In this document: piece by piece, positions 25,331 to 33,175 of the stretch
Position numbering within the stretch: the first letter of the stretch is position 1
Layout of the letters: the number at the start of each line of letters is the position of its first letter
Virus record (IMG/VR): IMGVR_UViG_3300045790_003109
Coordinates: 1 to 37,546 of that record
Strand: one strand, 5' to 3'
Length of the DNA stretch: 37,546 nucleotides
From: a virus
Made by a program: the position numbers and the translations under genes
The notes under the pieces: generated by a model
What the model was told of the DNA's origin: nothing
Seen by the model: the letters and a program-made list of their open reading frames with translations, nothing else
The model's database searches: none

Positions 25331-26080
25331 TTATGCAACCCTCCGAGACCGTGGCGCTTCGTTGCGCAAGAAGGGCGCTTCGCCCCATTGATCAAGCGAC
25401 ATGGTGTTGAGGCCCATCAAGTGGCTCTGCTGTGCGACATAGGCAAAATCCATCGCCATTTTGCGCACGACGCCGTCATTGCGGGTGCGAATGTGTTCAA
25501 GCAAGTCAGAGGTGATCGTGATGCCATTGGCATAGTGATCCGCCAGCATTTCGGTGTCTTGCAGATCGGCGCGTTCAGCGCCAACCCAGCGGTAAACGCG
25601 GTTGTCTACCTGTTCCCATTGGCGCAGCTTTTGGGGCAATTCTTCCATGCCAACCAAGATGATCGGAATTCCCGCCTTGTCGTGGATGTCTCGGACCCGC
25701 TCAATCATCGGCGAGGACCGCTTTTTAATCAGATAGTCAGCCTCATCTAAGATCAGCAGACGGTTGGCGCGCATCAGCTCTTGTTTGCACTGGTAGGATT
25801 TCTCGGCGACGGTGCCGCGTGCTGTCACACCCAGTTCTGACAAAATGGCAAAGTAGAGCATGCTGGCGGTCCAGTCAGACTCTATGGAGATGTGGATCGC
25901 GTCCAAGCTTGCGCAGACGCTGGCGCTGGCAAAACTCTTGCCCAAGCCCGATGGCCCGTGAAACACCCCCAAGCCCGGCAAGCCAAAGGTGCGGTCCATC
26001 AATTCAGTTGCAAGCATTGTCATAGCCGCGACGTTGCGCAGAGGCTTGATGCTGTTGCCGGTCGTTAATGCCTGTGTCAT
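25331..26080 (-). CDS. MuB-like AAA+ ATPase, target selector
   Basis: 249 residues, somewhat shorter than Mu B (312), mostly at the N-terminus. Walker A GPSGLGKS (residues 42-49), Walker B LLILDEAD, and the sensor region IPIILVGMEEL. The family forms ATP-dependent filaments on target DNA and delivers it to the transpososome while protecting phage DNA from self-insertion. It lies directly downstream of the transposase gene, as in Mu. Confidence 0.9.
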   Translation of the reverse strand: MTQALTTGNSIKPLRNVAAMTMLATELMDRTFGLPGLGVFHGPSGLGKSFASASVCASLDAIHISIESDWTASMLYFAILSELGVTARGTVAEKSYQCKQELMRANRLLILDEADYLIKKRSSPMIERVRDIHDKAGIPIILVGMEELPQKLRQWEQVDNRVYRWVGAERADLQDTEMLADHYANGITITSDLLEHIRTRNDGVVRKMAMDFAYVAQQSHLMGLNTMSLDQWGEAPFLRNEAPRSRRVA

Positions 26081-26122: not shown

Positions 26123-28234
26123 TTATCGAATACCGCTGGTCCCGTGGGCCTCGAACATAGCCAACTGACCTTTGTATTCGGCGCTCTCCATGTAACGGTT
26201 GAGTTTTCTTGCCTCTTCCGAGCCAATAGGTTCGCCCGCCTCTGCGCGTTCTAAAATCGCTTGCGCACGCCGAAAGCGGTCGCCTGCGGTTTCCATCTCT
26301 TTCGGGGGCGTCTTTTGGGGCATGTTCAAAATCATGGCTTCACGCGTCGCCTCAACGGCAGGGTTGTCTTGCACATCGATGTTGCGTGGTGGACGCTGCA
26401 TCTTGACGGCCTTTTTGCCAAACATCCCGCTGACAACTTTGGCTTCGGGGCGCCCCAACGGAGCGGAGGCCGCGTCGTCCAACGCGTCGCCCAAGTCGGT
26501 TGTCGAAATCGGCGCGTGCGCTGCCAGCAGATCCTTTTCGGCCTTTTTGATCCGTGAATTGCGTTTCGCGGTTTTCTTTGAACCATCCATGTCGAAAAAG
26601 CCTGTCTTTTGACGACATTCTGCAAAGCCCAAATACTCACCTTCGGTGCTGTAGATATAAACCCCGCTGTGCAAATCCTCTGGGTCAAACCGTGCGATGA
26701 TTTTGCGACTTGGGTGCTCTGACATCCAATCACTGTGGTAGTGGTTGCCTTGGAATTTCACCTCGCCACTGTGCTTGTTCATCGTGGCAGCATGCTGCCC
26801 CATCATCCAAAGACGGCGCTGTTCTTCGGTGGCTTTTTGAATGGGTGCGCTGGCGTAGCTTTCCTCAAAGGTCTGATCGAATGATCTGCCCTCTGCTGTA
26901 GATGACAAACGGCCTTGGCGCATGTTGTGCTCTTCGACACGTTCGGCCAAAACCTGTAAAAACTTGTCGGCAGGAATGGCGCGCTCACCATAGTTTTCCG
27001 GCTTAGCTGTCGGTTTGTTGCCGACATATGCGCCCGCAAACCGCACATCTTTGGCGATTGAGCTGGCAAAATCGCGAAACCCGCGTTCAATTGGCTTGGC
27101 TTGCCCGTGGGCAGGCGTTGCAAAGGTCACTTGCACGCCCAAAAGCGGCAACACACCCAGCGGCTCGTCTTCAACAATCTTATAACGGAACCGATGCTCT
27201 GCACCGCCTGTGAGCCATTTGTTGGCAAACTCGCGCCCGTTATCAAACAGGCAGCGGCGTGGAATGCCCCAATTTTCAATCATTTCGCCAAACGCCGCCA
27301 TGACCATGACCTTGTTTGGGTCGTGATCAACGCGCCATGCCAGCATTTTGTTGGAATAGAGGTCTTGGAAAGCAATGATTTGCGGGCGGTTGATCGTGCC
27401 GTCTGGCCATTCCACAAAGACGTCGATCTTATGACAATCGGCGTTGACAGCTTCCAAAGCGTGCAAGCCGCTGCGGTCGCGAATTTGCGCCGGAAAACAG
27501 CGCATCAAACCTGATAAGCCTTCACGGGCAAAAACGGTTGTGACGCGGGGAACCTCTTTTTCGATCCGCCGTTTTGCCGTGCGCTCGTGAACGATTGTCC
27601 AACCTTTGGATTTGGCTGCTCGCACAGAATCGCGGTAGCAGTCTTTAAATGTCGGGGCTTCAAGGCGCAGATAAAGGCTTGTTAAAAACGTCATGAAAGG
27701 CCGCGTTTCTGTGTCTGTAACGACCTTGCGCGCTGCCAAGCGGTGCTGTGGCGGCAAATAGGCAAGGCGGTCCTCATGGGCCACGCCCTCAATCATTTTG
27801 ATCCAGTTGTAGATCGAGCGTGGCGACGCCTTGGCTGTCTGCGCGGATATGGCATCGACGGCGGCCACTTGCGTCGTGCCAATCGACACAGTCTCTTCTA
27901 CCTGTTGAATGATCCCTAAACGGCGCTTGGCCTCGTCTTTGGGTTTCTGGGGCAGGGCGTCAAAGGCAGCCCATGCCGCCCCGCGTTCTGGCTTGGCATC
28001 GGGCGCGGTCTCTGTGCGTGCCAAAAGCGCCTTGCGGGCTTCAAGCGGCAACACCGACCAGTGATACTGCCAACCGCCGCCACGTCCGGCTTTGCGTTGC
28101 GCGCAGCCTTTCTGTAATCGCCATGCAGCGGCCAGCAGATTGACGCCTTGGCGCGTGCCGGGCAAGGTCGGCAGCTTGGAGGCCGCCAACTCGTCAGCCG
28201 ACCACCAAATCTTGGATGGCTCAACGCGGCTCAT
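26123..28234 (-). CDS. MuA-like DDE transposase
   Basis: 703 residues (Mu A has 663). The N-terminal domain (IWWSADELAASKLPTLPGTR) is the Mu-type enhancer/end-binding domain. The catalytic core has Asp266 (NADCHKIDVF), Asp331 (LFDNGREFANKW) and Glu383 (GQAKPIERGFRDF), spaced as D269, D336 and E392 of Mu A. The C-terminal region holds the Mu-type beta-barrel and a helical tail presumed to contact the B protein. It catalyses strand transfer for integration and replicative transposition. The start overlaps the ParB-like stop by ATGA, so the two are co-translated. Confidence 0.96.
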   Translation of the reverse strand: MSRVEPSKIWWSADELAASKLPTLPGTRQGVNLLAAAWRLQKGCAQRKAGRGGGWQYHWSVLPLEARKALLARTETAPDAKPERGAAWAAFDALPQKPKDEAKRRLGIIQQVEETVSIGTTQVAAVDAISAQTAKASPRSIYNWIKMIEGVAHEDRLAYLPPQHRLAARKVVTDTETRPFMTFLTSLYLRLEAPTFKDCYRDSVRAAKSKGWTIVHERTAKRRIEKEVPRVTTVFAREGLSGLMRCFPAQIRDRSGLHALEAVNADCHKIDVFVEWPDGTINRPQIIAFQDLYSNKMLAWRVDHDPNKVMVMAAFGEMIENWGIPRRCLFDNGREFANKWLTGGAEHRFRYKIVEDEPLGVLPLLGVQVTFATPAHGQAKPIERGFRDFASSIAKDVRFAGAYVGNKPTAKPENYGERAIPADKFLQVLAERVEEHNMRQGRLSSTAEGRSFDQTFEESYASAPIQKATEEQRRLWMMGQHAATMNKHSGEVKFQGNHYHSDWMSEHPSRKIIARFDPEDLHSGVYIYSTEGEYLGFAECRQKTGFFDMDGSKKTAKRNSRIKKAEKDLLAAHAPISTTDLGDALDDAASAPLGRPEAKVVSGMFGKKAVKMQRPPRNIDVQDNPAVEATREAMILNMPQKTPPKEMETAGDRFRRAQAILERAEAGEPIGSEEARKLNRYMESAEYKGQLAMFEAHGTSGIR

Positions 28235-29629: not shown

Positions 29630-29715
29630 CACAGCCCCCAAACGCATTTGAAAAGCGCTATCCAAATTGAAAGCCCAAGTGCCGTCGAAGGCAAAATCCA
29701 CCACCCTTTGAACAT
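29629..29715 (-). CDS. Tiny Trp-rich hydrophobic peptide gene (candidate)
   Basis: 28 residues (MFKGWWILPSTALGLSIWIA...), nearly all hydrophobic. The ATG overlaps the stop of the gene before it (TGATG) and is preceded by GAGGAGG at good spacing; its own stop overlaps the next ATG in the same way. Such ordered overlaps are hard to get by chance, but the peptide is very short and has no known match. Confidence 0.4.
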   Translation of the reverse strand: MFKGWWILPSTALGLSIWIALFKCVWGL

Positions 29716-29960
29716 CACGCAGCCTCCTCTTTAGAAGTTTTGGGGCGGGGGATGTCTGAGGGCCATTCGAGGTCGGAGGGCCAAACTCTTGATAGGTGAT
29801 CAAAAGCTTTCTGGGCTGTTTTCAGCGTGCAGCCGTGCCCGTCACGTAATCGTTTGAACAGGCGCGCGTGTCCAACGCACCATGTTGAAATTGTCGCTTC
29901 TGATCGGGCCGAATGATTAGCTAGAGTTTCGGCTAGTTTTATGAGGTGTCTTTGTTCCAT
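29715..29960 (-). CDS. Ner/Cro-position small regulator candidate
   Basis: 81 residues, first gene of the early operon, divergent from the repressor. KLAETLANHSARSEATISTW could be a helix-turn-helix, and the tail WPSDLEWPSDIPRPKTS resembles small proteins common beside repressors in alphaproteobacterial prophages. By place it should act like Ner or Cro, turning down the early promoter and the repressor. The ATG lies only 7 nt after a candidate -10 hexamer, so the message may be leaderless. Confidence 0.62.
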   Translation of the reverse strand: MEQRHLIKLAETLANHSARSEATISTWCVGHARLFKRLRDGHGCTLKTAQKAFDHLSRVWPSDLEWPSDIPRPKTSKEEAA

Positions 29961-29967
29961 GGCTTAC

Positions 29968-29995
29968 TTTATGCAAATTTGCATTTTACTGTCAA
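29968..29995 (-). promoter_or_regulatory. Candidate early promoter
   Basis: On the minus strand a perfect -35 TTGACA (29990-29995) is followed by a 16-bp spacer and CATAAA (29968-29973, four of six to the -10 consensus). The palindrome at 29971-29984 covers the -10 and spacer, so a bound repressor would block polymerase. Confidence 0.55.
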
Positions 29996-30100
29996 TGTAA
30001 ATTTATATAATTATTGCAATGTAAATTTGCACTAATTTGGAATCAGACTGTTTCGCGCTAAGCTGCTTGTGCGTATTCGCGTTTTGGTGCAAATTTGCAC
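29971..30100. promoter_or_regulatory. Repressor operator array, four TGCAAATTTGCA-type palindromes
   Basis: Four copies of a dyad: 29971-29984 (perfect ATGCAAATTTGCAT), 29996-30007 (TGTAAATTTATA, degenerate), 30020-30031 (TGTAAATTTGCA) and 30087-30100 (perfect GTGCAAATTTGCAC). The centres of the first three are exactly 24 bp apart; the fourth is 68 bp further and abuts the repressor ATG. The set covers the early promoter and the repressor start, so it should control both. The match to the repressor is inferred from place. Confidence 0.75.
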
Positions 30101-30101
30101 A

Positions 30102-30788
30102 ATGTTGAATGCGCAAGAAATATATCAAAGACTCGAAGATCGACGTAAACTACTTGGCCTTAGTCAAGCAGAGGTTGGTTCACGAGCATTTGGAAAGGCT
30201 GATAATTCGGCACTTCAAGCGCTTCGAAAGGGATCTCTACCTTCTGCTGAAAAGTTGTATTTGCTTTGTAACGCAGTTGGCTGGGAGTTTTACTTTGGAC
30301 CGCCGCGCGACACAGTTGGCACAGAGCAACCGCCCGCCGCCGATCCACAAGAATTCGCCAACATTCCGCTGCACGAGGCCAGCCTTGCCGCTGGGGCAGG
30401 GGCTGCGAATGGTGCTGAGCCTATCGTGGATTACCTATCGTTCCGCCGCGACTGGCTGCGCCGCATCGGCACAGCCCCCGCAAACGCCGTGTTGGCGCGG
30501 GTCTCAGGTGACAGCATGGAGCCAACGATCTGGGCGGGTGACATGGTGCTCGTCGACAGGTCGAAAACCGTCGTCCCAGTCCGAACCAGCTCCAGCAAAA
30601 AAGGCCGCAGTGCAATCTACGCCGTGCTGGACGATGGCCACGCCCGCGTCAAACGCATCGAGCGCCCAAGCGAAGACCAAATCCTGCTGCTCTCGGACAA
30701 CCCCGATGTCACCCCCGAATTCTCCAACCCCAAAACGCTCTCTATCATCGGTAAAGTGATGTGGTGGGGGCATACTAATAGGGAATGA
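30102..30788 (+). CDS. S24/LexA-type phage repressor
   Basis: 228 residues from the ATG at 30102, which touches an operator; a GTG at 30069 in the same frame is possible, and neither has a clear ribosome site, so translation may be leaderless. The N-terminal helix-turn-helix (LLGLSQAEVGSRAFGKADNS) is followed by an S24 peptidase domain: Ser138 in VSGDSMEPTIWAGD and Lys184 in ARVKRIE form the catalytic dyad. Ala-Gly pairs at 97-100 are possible self-cleavage points, which would make the prophage SOS-inducible. It replaces the unrelated Mu c protein in function and is divergent from the early operon, as c is. Confidence 0.9.
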   Translation: MLNAQEIYQRLEDRRKLLGLSQAEVGSRAFGKADNSALQALRKGSLPSAEKLYLLCNAVGWEFYFGPPRDTVGTEQPPAADPQEFANIPLHEASLAAGAGAANGAEPIVDYLSFRRDWLRRIGTAPANAVLARVSGDSMEPTIWAGDMVLVDRSKTVVPVRTSSSKKGRSAIYAVLDDGHARVKRIERPSEDQILLLSDNPDVTPEFSNPKTLSIIGKVMWWGHTNRE

Positions 30789-30791
30789 GTT

Positions 30792-31772
30792 ATGTCTTGG
30801 TGGCAAAATTTATTTGGTAAACCTCATAGAGATGCACTCGAGCGTCCTACAACAAAGGGCCAACAAGTGCGAGTTTCGGAAACTGGGCGGGTTGCCAGAA
30901 TTCGAGATTTGAATTTCTCTGGTATCAGCTATTCATCATCAGATAAGCGATTTCGCATGATTTTGAAGGATAGTTTCGAAGGGCGTGGGGGGCATCGGTA
31001 TTCGGGGAATGGTCAATTCATGCTCCTAAAAGATGATGTTCCTGTTTATAAAGGGGAAATGGAGAGGCCTAGTGACGGATGTGTTGCCAACTCGGGGCAT
31101 GTAATTATTGCTGATTGGGGTTTCGGTGACGAATTACGCTCCACAATATATGTTATTTCACCATCGTCTGAAAAGTTGGTGGAGCATCGGCTCAACGCCA
31201 ATTGTACTGTTGTTGGAATTTCTGATTGTGGTCAAATTGCAGCCTGTCATACCGCAAACGCTCCTAACTCCGATGGTAACAAATTCACTGTTTTTGACAC
31301 AAAAAATGGGACAGTTATTTGTTGTTGTGAATTAGAAACTGGGTGGCCAAGCTCATTTGGTTTTGATATCGAGGCTGACCTCGTTCATTTAAATTTTTCC
31401 CATCCAGTAGAAGAAAGCTTTTCAATAACTACGCATGGCGACTTTGTAGACCGAGAGCAATGGATTGATTCAGAAATAGGGCGTGGAAACTTGCGCCTTG
31501 CTATGAAGTTATTAGGTGAATCTGTGCCTTTAAATGAAAAACGTAAGAGTGATGCACAACGTGCGGCTAAGGCTTGGGAATTGCTGTCTGAAAAAGACAG
31601 TAATAATTCCTACCATGCGGGAACATGGCGACTACACGGTGAAATCATGGAGGTTTTAGGTGATTTGCCAAAGGCGATGCGTTCGTTCAATATTGCATTG
31701 TCGCTTGACCCTAAGGTTGGTGTGAAAAGAAAAATAGCAGCAATGATGCGCTCCGGCATTGTTTCTGCTTAA
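30792..31772 (+). CDS. Cargo protein of unknown function with TPR-like C-terminus
   Basis: 326 residues, starting 4 bp after the repressor stop. The first two-thirds alternate short strands and turns (SGISYSSSDKRFRMILKDSF..., VVGISDCGQIAACHTAN...), suggesting a beta-propeller-like body. The last 70 residues (SYHAGTWRLHGEIMEVLGDL, KAMRSFNIALSLDP) fit one or two TPR-type helical repeats. It is far more AT-rich than the phage (22 G/C of 60 bases at 31381-31440, against 38 of 60 at 7201-7260), pointing to recent transfer. Being behind the repressor it could be expressed in the lysogen, the usual setting for prophage-encoded defence genes. I do not recognise the family. Confidence 0.72.
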   Translation: MSWWQNLFGKPHRDALERPTTKGQQVRVSETGRVARIRDLNFSGISYSSSDKRFRMILKDSFEGRGGHRYSGNGQFMLLKDDVPVYKGEMERPSDGCVANSGHVIIADWGFGDELRSTIYVISPSSEKLVEHRLNANCTVVGISDCGQIAACHTANAPNSDGNKFTVFDTKNGTVICCCELETGWPSSFGFDIEADLVHLNFSHPVEESFSITTHGDFVDREQWIDSEIGRGNLRLAMKLLGESVPLNEKRKSDAQRAAKAWELLSEKDSNNSYHAGTWRLHGEIMEVLGDLPKAMRSFNIALSLDPKVGVKRKIAAMMRSGIVSA

Positions 31773-31963: not shown

Positions 31964-33175
31964 TCACCCCCGATCAAAGAACCCCAAGTGCTCTTGCTGC
32001 TCACCATACTTGATGACGGTCTTGCCATACCGCAGATTAATGCGGTCTATGGTGGCAGACAGCGTTTCGCGTTTGCTGGTTTGCCCTGGTGCAAGCGGCA
32101 GGAAAAGTTCGCCGTTGCGCTCGCTGAGCAAAACGAGGTTCGTGAGGTTGATGCCGATCGATGTGGCTTGAGTGCGACTGCTGGCAAACTGCGCCGTGAG
32201 GGCGTCGAAGATATCCAGAAAATCACGGGTGTCTTGGCTTGGGTTGAGCGTTTGTTGCCAATGATGCCCGTGTCGTTTCCACAGGCCGATGTGGATGGAA
32301 ATCCGTCCCGCGCAATAGCCGTCACGCCGCATGCGTGCCGCTGCCCGTTCGACCAACCAGCGGCCAACACGGGTGGCCATTGGCGCAGGCCGATACTTTG
32401 GCGCGAGCACTTTGGATTGCCCGTAGGTGTTGCGCTGGGTTTCGATCAACGGGATGTCTTCGCCTTGCAACCCACGCACAAAACGCTCGCCCTCAACTGA
32501 GCGCCAAATCATGCGGGCGTGCCGTGGATCGAGCGCATACAGCTCATGAATGCCCCAGACGTGTGCCTTGCCCAAACGGGCGCTCATGCCGCGTGAAATT
32601 CCCGGCAAATCGTCCAGTTTGAGATGGGCAATGGCCTCTGGCATATTCTCAGGCGCGAGCCATTGCAGGCCGTCGGGTTTTTCCAATTTTCCAGCAATCT
32701 TTGCCAGCAATTGGTTTGGCCCAATACCAATCGAACAGCGCAGCTGACTGCCCACATCTTCACGGATGATCTTTTTAATGTCGCGGGCCAAATCCAGCGC
32801 GGCAGGGAGCGCACTGGTTCTGCCGCCAAGGGCGATTTGAAATTCATCAATCGAGCGTACCCGCTCCACTTCCGCGATGGTATCTATGGCCTTTGAGATC
32901 GCCTGATTGGCCCGCGCATAGAGCTTGTGACGGGCTTGCAGAAACACGATGTCAGGGCAAATTTGACGCGCTTCAGCAACGCGCATAATCGTTTTGACGC
33001 CTTGCGCCTTGGCCTCATAGCTGGCGGCTACAACAGCTCCAGCCCAATTGTTGTGCGGGCCGGTCTCAAGCGCAGTGATCGCCACAGGTCGCCCCCTGAG
33101 ACGAGAATCGACCTGTTGTTCAACGCTGGCGAAAAAGGCGTTCATATCCAGATATAGACAGCGCATCGGGGTCAT
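31964..33175 (-). CDS. Y-family translesion DNA polymerase (DinB/UmuC-like)
   Basis: 403 residues. Catalytic carboxylates are visible as Asp10 (CLYLDMNAFFASVEQ) and Asp110-Glu111 (RVRSIDEFQI). The middle has DDLPGISRGMSARLGK, the helix-hairpin-helix region, and the C-terminal little-finger domain follows. The last residues QEHLGFFDRG could be a sliding-clamp binding motif. It copies past damaged bases at the cost of mutations. It is divergent from a small gene across a LexA box and ends 14 bp after the repressor remnant. Whether it belongs to the phage or the host is open. Confidence 0.9.
   Translation of the reverse strand: MTPMRCLYLDMNAFFASVEQQVDSRLRGRPVAITALETGPHNNWAGAVVAASYEAKAQGVKTIMRVAEARQICPDIVFLQARHKLYARANQAISKAIDTIAEVERVRSIDEFQIALGGRTSALPAALDLARDIKKIIREDVGSQLRCSIGIGPNQLLAKIAGKLEKPDGLQWLAPENMPEAIAHLKLDDLPGISRGMSARLGKAHVWGIHELYALDPRHARMIWRSVEGERFVRGLQGEDIPLIETQRNTYGQSKVLAPKYRPAPMATRVGRWLVERAAARMRRDGYCAGRISIHIGLWKRHGHHWQQTLNPSQDTRDFLDIFDALTAQFASSRTQATSIGINLTNLVLLSERNGELFLPLAPGQTSKRETLSATIDRINLRYGKTVIKYGEQQEHLGFFDRG

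Follow-up and report, generated by a model that had tools for sequence, protein, structure and literature searches.

Four copies of one dyad lie between a CI-like repressor gene and a divergent early operon, and we consider that together with the two flanking genes they very likely constitute a lysogeny switch. The window, that is, the whole stretch of DNA analyzed here, is the 37,546-base virus record IMGVR_UViG_3300045790_003109, and positions 29971-30100 would be the switch control region of a dormant Mu-like phage from the Rhodobacteraceae group (marine bacteria). In the model which we favor the four dyads are repressor operators, the phrog_7669 gene at the head of the early operon encodes a Cro/Ner-like protein, and among related phages the cassette is swapped whereas the pitch of the operators is kept. 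We are somewhat less sure, though still inclined to believe, that the switch behaves as a plug-in module: the operators and both HTHs would be exchanged as a block and the 24-bp pitch, presumably set by the C-terminal domain of the repressor, would be kept over at least five operator sequences. The sites, their spacing, the co-variation and the cassette exchange were all computed from the sequences. The main interest of the analysis lies in this family-wide rule and in the role which it suggests for phrog_7669. The genes and sites concerned are the following.

30102-30788, plus strand: CI-like repressor with an N-terminal four-helix HTH domain and an S24/LexA-like C-terminal domain
29715-29960, minus strand: first early gene, phrog_7669 (E 3.9e-25), a family without assigned function, in the Cro/Ner position
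26123-28234, minus strand: MuA-type transposase, which places the element among the Mu-like phages
25331-26080, minus strand: MuB-type transposition protein
29972-29983: predicted operator O1, TGCAAATTTGCA, 0 mismatches
29996-30007: predicted operator O2, TGTAAATTTATA, 3 mismatches to TGCAAATTTGCA
30020-30031: predicted operator O3, TGTAAATTTGCA, 1 mismatch to TGCAAATTTGCA
30088-30099: predicted operator O4, TGCAAATTTGCA, 0 mismatches

The repressor matches PF00717 (S24 peptidase-like, C-terminal) with E 6.5e-21 and the phrog_4 repressor with E 2e-39; its structure model has a pLDDT of 91.6 and its matches include LexA, a lambda-186 hybrid and lambda CI. MuA and MuB in the early operon are recognized through DDE_2 (E 1.7e-44) and phrog_296 (E 1.9e-49). 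For the first early gene the model (pLDDT 80) shows four helices with an HTH, and its profile aligns with that of the repressor over residues 1-60 and 1-64, respectively (HHalign 92.6%, E 4.5e-7). Matches of its fold are weak (Foldseek best E 0.18; best Z 5.0). Many XRE-type HTH proteins appear at low significance in the Foldseek and VIA-align lists, and the best solved structure by profile is HipB with E 0.15. With Pfam and NCBIfam there is no match at E <= 0.001, so that phrog_7669 is its only assignment; a Pfam identity for the family as a whole was also sought and dropped, as nothing consistent emerged (best HTH_38 in 2/59 members, E 0.0017). The genomic setting, with phrog_7669 as the first early gene divergent from the repressor, is that of an immunity region with a gene in Cro/Ner position; a first-pass annotation of this DNA had already named a Ner-position protein.

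Two further genes lie on the repressor side. At 30792-31772 on the plus strand, thus on the strand of the repressor and starting 3 bp after its stop, a 326-aa gene is found which has no Pfam, PHROG or NCBIfam match; it may be expressed along with the repressor in the lysogen. Beyond the switch, at 31964-33175 on the minus strand, there is a gene for a DinB/UmuC-type polymerase with an IMS domain, which may be a sign of host DNA at the prophage end.

The first-pass annotation had described four dyads between repressor and early operon, three of them with centres 24 bp apart and the fourth at the repressor ATG, with perfect end copies and degenerate middle ones. All of this holds by coordinates. 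The centres are at 29977.5, 30001.5, 30025.5 and 30093.5, which gives spacings of 24, 24 and 68 bp, and O4 ends at 30099, 2 bp before the repressor ATG (start 30102). Measured from the ATG of the first gene, the centre of O1 lies 17.5 bp upstream and that of O2 41.5 bp. O3 is the left site nearest to the repressor, with 76.5 bp between its centre and the repressor ATG.

AT-rich palindromes could in principle cluster by chance, and loose matches to the dyad (up to 3 mismatches) are indeed not in excess over the whole window, where 26 were counted against a shuffle mean of 36.5. The cluster itself is a different matter: an array of four sites, each with 3 mismatches or fewer, arose in only 1/20,000 shuffles of 29961-30110 and two perfect sites in 0/20,000. 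We also built a position matrix on 6 relatives, which contribute 18 sites, with the window left out. This relatives-only matrix gives the four dyads the top four ranks among the 37,531 window positions (scores in descending order 20.7, 19.1, 14.0 and 13.9), and the next-best position of the window scores 9.2. Given these ranks and the presence of the sites at the same place in relatives, we reject a chance cluster, which we regard as practically out of the question. The same matrix speaks against one part of the earlier description. The perfect end copies had been taken as the strong ones in a graded series, but with the matrix as a proxy of affinity O3 scores highest, O3 and O4 are the top sites and O1 is level with O2.

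The repressor and the first gene served as queries for relatives, and the search covered phage records, contigs of viruses and of genomes, and the genomes of one family. We obtained 118 non-redundant control regions, 116 of them with a divergent repressor-like reading frame. We left out the two lacking a repressor ORF, L061, which has no start below 200, and eight loci that were second copies or not adjacent. The remaining 107 control regions were scanned automatically for three dyads similar to each other, and 89 of these exceed their own shuffles at z > 4. Among the operators at least five sequence groups can be told apart, unrelated to one another and each with several members; we named them by their half-site words. 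The groups and the fraction of their members with a 24-bp first pair of sites are listed here.

Class A (this window), TGyAAATTTrCA: 8/11
Class B, TAGCC..GGCTA: 21/24
Class C, AAGAT..ATCTT: 5/6 in a group of class C plus the class-A-like outlier L113
Class D, CGGTA..TACCG: 22/24
Further operator group, TTGGGC..GCCCAA: 7/9

Across these unrelated operator sequences the first two sites are 24 bp apart in 65/80 non-redundant loci (72/89 with redundancy), and the same detector gives a spacing of 24 in 27/642 shuffled regions. In the other 15/80 loci the first pair is not at 24 bp by the automatic detector. Class A has three misses: this window, where the matrix scan gives 24+24, then L002 with 24+31+38, and L064, in which the scan finds two sites only, 60 apart. 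By the same scan, 14/20 class-A-like regions have the 24-bp first pair. In the other class-A regions with this pair there are two left sites at 24 bp and a last site 57-79 bp further on, O3 of the window being the counterpart of the second left operator. L002 is an exception to this layout, and weak additional hits are seen in L068 and L101. Five distant relatives (L126, L127, L133, L146, L148) have, by the automatic detector, dyads of the GCGGGAAATTTCCCGC-, GCGGAA- or GCGATAA-type at 22-24 or 34 bp, which are probably further operator groups. Phages RcapMu and RcWaterboi were considered as members and set aside, as in neither did a pair version of the detector find two similar dyads above the level of shuffles. 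The first gene there carries the annotation NLP-family repressor or HTH protein (NLP-family repressor in RcapMu), and lysogens of the two are reported to be mutually immune (PMC8601537).

Promoters could be placed around the operators by motif and position.

29990-29995, minus strand: presumed early-promoter -35, TTGACA, by consensus match only, with its 5′ end at a distance of 35 nt from the first-gene ATG
29966-29971, minus strand: presumed early-promoter -10, TAAAGT, a poor match to the consensus
30067-30072, plus strand: presumed repressor-promoter -35, TTGTGC
30090-30095, plus strand: presumed repressor-promoter -10, CAAATT, inside O4

The presumed early -35 and -10 elements flank O1 with a spacer of 18 bp. 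In 5/11 class-A regions, namely those with an exact GTCAA, the end of TTGAC is 34-36 nt from the first-gene ATG; GTCAA is absent in 26/80 loci. Taken alone, the promoter and terminator scan performs at chance level (promoters: 1 found vs 0.9 expected). On the other side TTGTG is found 35-36 nt upstream of the repressor ATG in 14/16 class-A regions, so that the presumed -10 element falls inside O4; this check covered 16 of the 20 class-A-like regions, with the starts of L054 and L018 set by hand. A Shine-Dalgarno sequence is not visible before the repressor ATG or the first-gene ATG. Together with the presumed promoter positions this suggests that both the repressor and the early message may be leaderless.

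The early promoter offers another explanation of the 24-bp regularity. One site in the spacer and one upstream of the -35 element could impose this distance with no contact between dimers, and in this window the -35 box does sit between the first two sites. The same holds for most class A, B and C regions which have a box, with TTGAC at 34-38 nt. Class D differs: there TTGAC is usually 54-61 nt from the first-gene ATG and thus past the second site (20/22 with a box), yet the pitch is still 24 bp in 22/24. A spacing dictated by the promoter is therefore less likely, and we think it rather improbable. We prefer a pitch set by the repressor dimers, which probably bind the predicted operators cooperatively.

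For the co-variation of operators and proteins 85 loci were taken (z > 4, repressor >=150 aa), of which 80 were left after removal of near-duplicates. Over these 80 loci operator similarity and the similarity of the N-domain of the repressor correlate with a rho of 0.487, against a permutation maximum of 0.098; there is no such correlation for the C-domain (rho 0.006). Within the repressor the signal is highest at residues 33-48, in the region of the third helix as predicted (36-42), and is near zero past residue 61; a difference between the HTH and helix 1 of the repressor is not distinguishable from 0. As the operator sequence tracks the N-terminal domain of the repressor, the dyads are very probably operators of this divergent CI-like protein, as the first-pass annotation had it.

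The first early gene follows the operators as well. For its N-part rho is 0.531 and for its tail 0.100 in the same 80 loci. The signal peaks at residues 13-36, mainly at helix 2 (21-29), which is covered more than the predicted helix 3, and is near zero past residue 57. One could argue that the dyads serve the repressor only and that the first gene has another job and co-varies merely as a neighbor. Since the two genes face each other with their 5′ ends, one crossover segment would carry all parts, and the two HTHs lack a class-wise resemblance: the likeness of repressor HTH and first-gene HTH shows no excess within over between classes (0.31 vs a null maximum of 1.93), in a test which is weak because alignments with free end gaps are unstable. 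But the peak in the first gene is at the HTH (residues 17-28, 0.587) and not at residues 1-12 (0.278) or 5-16 (0.136), and a partial rho of 0.425 persists given the repressor HTH. In addition, rho is 0.575 for the HTH of the first gene against 0.279 for its helix 1 (difference 0.30, bootstrap 0.23-0.36). Linkage alone is a poor explanation of this difference because helix 1 is encoded nearer to the operators than the HTH. Operators, repressor and first gene could co-vary partly as neighbors, but a service to the repressor alone appears unlikely to us, and we prefer to see the phrog_7669 product as a second reader of the operators.

In phage Mu the operators double as a transpositional enhancer. 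The array could accordingly be such an internal activation sequence, read by the N-terminal domain of MuA besides or instead of the repressor, and the MuA encoded here does carry the Mu N-terminal DNA-binding domain. In the 45 loci with a readable MuA N-terminus, this part of the protein does not co-vary with operator similarity (rho -0.022; permutation 95% 0.096), whereas in the same loci the N-parts of the repressor and of the first gene give 0.479 and 0.511. An enhancer read by MuA is not supported by these data, and we give it very little credence. The repressor and the first-gene product remain the proteins which we predict to read the sites.

A comparison of the window with L001 (Pacificibacter marinus, class B) displays the exchange of the cassette. 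In the repressor 132/137 residues of the C-domain are identical and only 20/62 of the N-domain. On the DNA level (100-bp bins) identity is 77-94% between 28.0 and 29.2 kb and 90-94% between 30.4 and 30.7 kb but only 26-51% between 29.8 and 30.3 kb. A second phrog_7669-type gene is present near the first one in L026 (vB_ThpS-P1), L140 and L038. Judged by eye, the additional copy in L026 and L140 is similar to the class-B type, and the operators there are of another class.

O2 is an extra site. The 24+24 layout occurs in the window and its sibling contig L018 only, among 20 class-A-like regions. Two consecutive 24-bp units can be delimited in the array.

29994-30017: first 24-bp unit
30018-30041: second 24-bp unit

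The units are identical at 16/24 positions in the window, a value reached by 15/20,000 shuffles, and at 19/24 in L018 (0/20,000). This identity is due partly to the operator within both units; outside the 16-bp operator 4/8 positions agree in the window and 6/8 in L018. The simplest reading is that O2 stems, as is probable from this repeat, from a tandem duplication of one 24-bp operator unit. Between L018 and the window 981/4145 alignment columns differ overall and only 6 within 29940-30146. All six fall in 29988-30022, within O2 and O3 and the spacers of these two sites, and leave O1 and O4 untouched. At 29998 in O2 and again, 24 bp away, at 30022 in O3 the same T/G change is seen, a pattern which gene conversion might leave.

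From these results we infer how the switch would work. Repressor dimers would occupy O1, O2 and O3 at the 24-bp pitch of lambda and would be joined via the conserved S24-type C-terminal domain. The leftward early promoter would thereby be blocked, with O1 located within its -35/-10 spacer. A dimer on O4 would cover the -10 element of the leaderless promoter of the repressor and would limit repressor synthesis. The phrog_7669 product is envisaged as an HTH-only protein of Cro/Ner-like function which reads the same operators and which, once early transcription has begun, would shut the repressor promoter at O4. Across the family the operators, the DNA-binding domain of the repressor and the HTH of the first gene would be swapped together as a single cassette, with the C-terminal domain and the 24-bp pitch retained.

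This proposal assigns a testable role, that of an operator-reading analog of Cro/Ner, to the conserved phage family phrog_7669. Immunity groups of the Rhodobacteraceae Mu-like phages should become predictable from sequence alone. The family further provides many natural pairs in which the operator sequence differs and the pitch is constant, and what fixes operator spacing in CI-type switches could thus be tested by domain swaps. If the model is true, the phages offer orthogonal genetic switches of natural origin which share a single scaffold, and in the phage of the window the array has grown through the duplication of exactly one pitch unit. A description of these operators was not found by title or abstract start among open-licence PMC papers, a weak negative. 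PMC5488378 annotates the repressors of vB_ThpS-P1 and vB_PeaS-P1, and a word search of it gives 0 mentions of 'operator' and 'ner'.

One of the closest known systems is that of Rhodobacter phage RC1 (L022), whose repressor is labeled 'CI-like repressor'. RC1 belongs to the same class, with TGCAAATTTACA-type sites, a 24-bp first pair and a last site at the repressor ATG as here; it has three sites without the extra 24-bp unit against four in the window. Rhodovulum phage RS1, likewise with an annotated 'CI-like repressor', shares the repressor match and the first gene. The first-gene match in the comparison with RC1/RS1 has 50.6% identity, and operators are not annotated in the stretches of the RC1 and RS1 records examined.

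In the cluster A mycobacteriophages the specificity of repressor and site defines immunity groups. Their immunity relies on stoperators (PMC6550527, PMC9283540), and PMC9283540 describes repressor sites spread across the genome. In our window, unlike there, the four top-scoring sites are all in 29970-30101. We considered an immunity of the stoperator type and rejected it, as no site elsewhere in the window comes near their scores.

The early region of Mu comprises c and ner, the operators O1-O3 and the enhancer. As in Mu, the repressor gene is divergent from an early operon which leads to MuA and MuB, and a small gene, here for a predicted DNA-binding protein, comes first. Unlike in Mu, the repressor is S24/CI-like, with such matches only and none of the Mu c type, and the first gene has no Ner match. 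Similarity of the MuA N-domain does not follow the operator type. The predicted switch thus lacks two defining features of Mu c/ner, the repressor type and Ner.

Lambda likewise has a CI-type repressor with S24 domain and N-terminal HTH, tandem dyads between divergent genes and a small HTH protein from the first early gene, which we also predict here. In the annotated lambda record NC_001416 OR2 and OR1 are 24 bp apart and OR3 and OR2 23 bp, and the distances of O1 and O2 to the first-gene ATG are close to those of OR1 and OR2 to the PR start. RecA-stimulated self-cleavage of the repressor is a further feature of the lambda kind; of this, the S24 domain is present here. The array had been called lambda-like with a different layout. 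The difference is real for O4, which stands alone, 68 bp away, where the promoter of the repressor has its presumed -10, but the 24-bp pitch is just that of OR2-OR1. Also unlike in lambda, the left cluster has three sites and the early genes are transposition genes. An operator adjoining the -35 of the repressor promoter, the feature of positive autoregulation, is absent next to the promoter as we place it, and an activation in the manner of OR2 is therefore unlikely. By these comparisons the switch would have the repressor and the pitch of lambda and lack the operator placement for positive autoregulation; as predicted from sequence it is a switch of the lambda CI/Cro kind which heads a Mu-like early operon.
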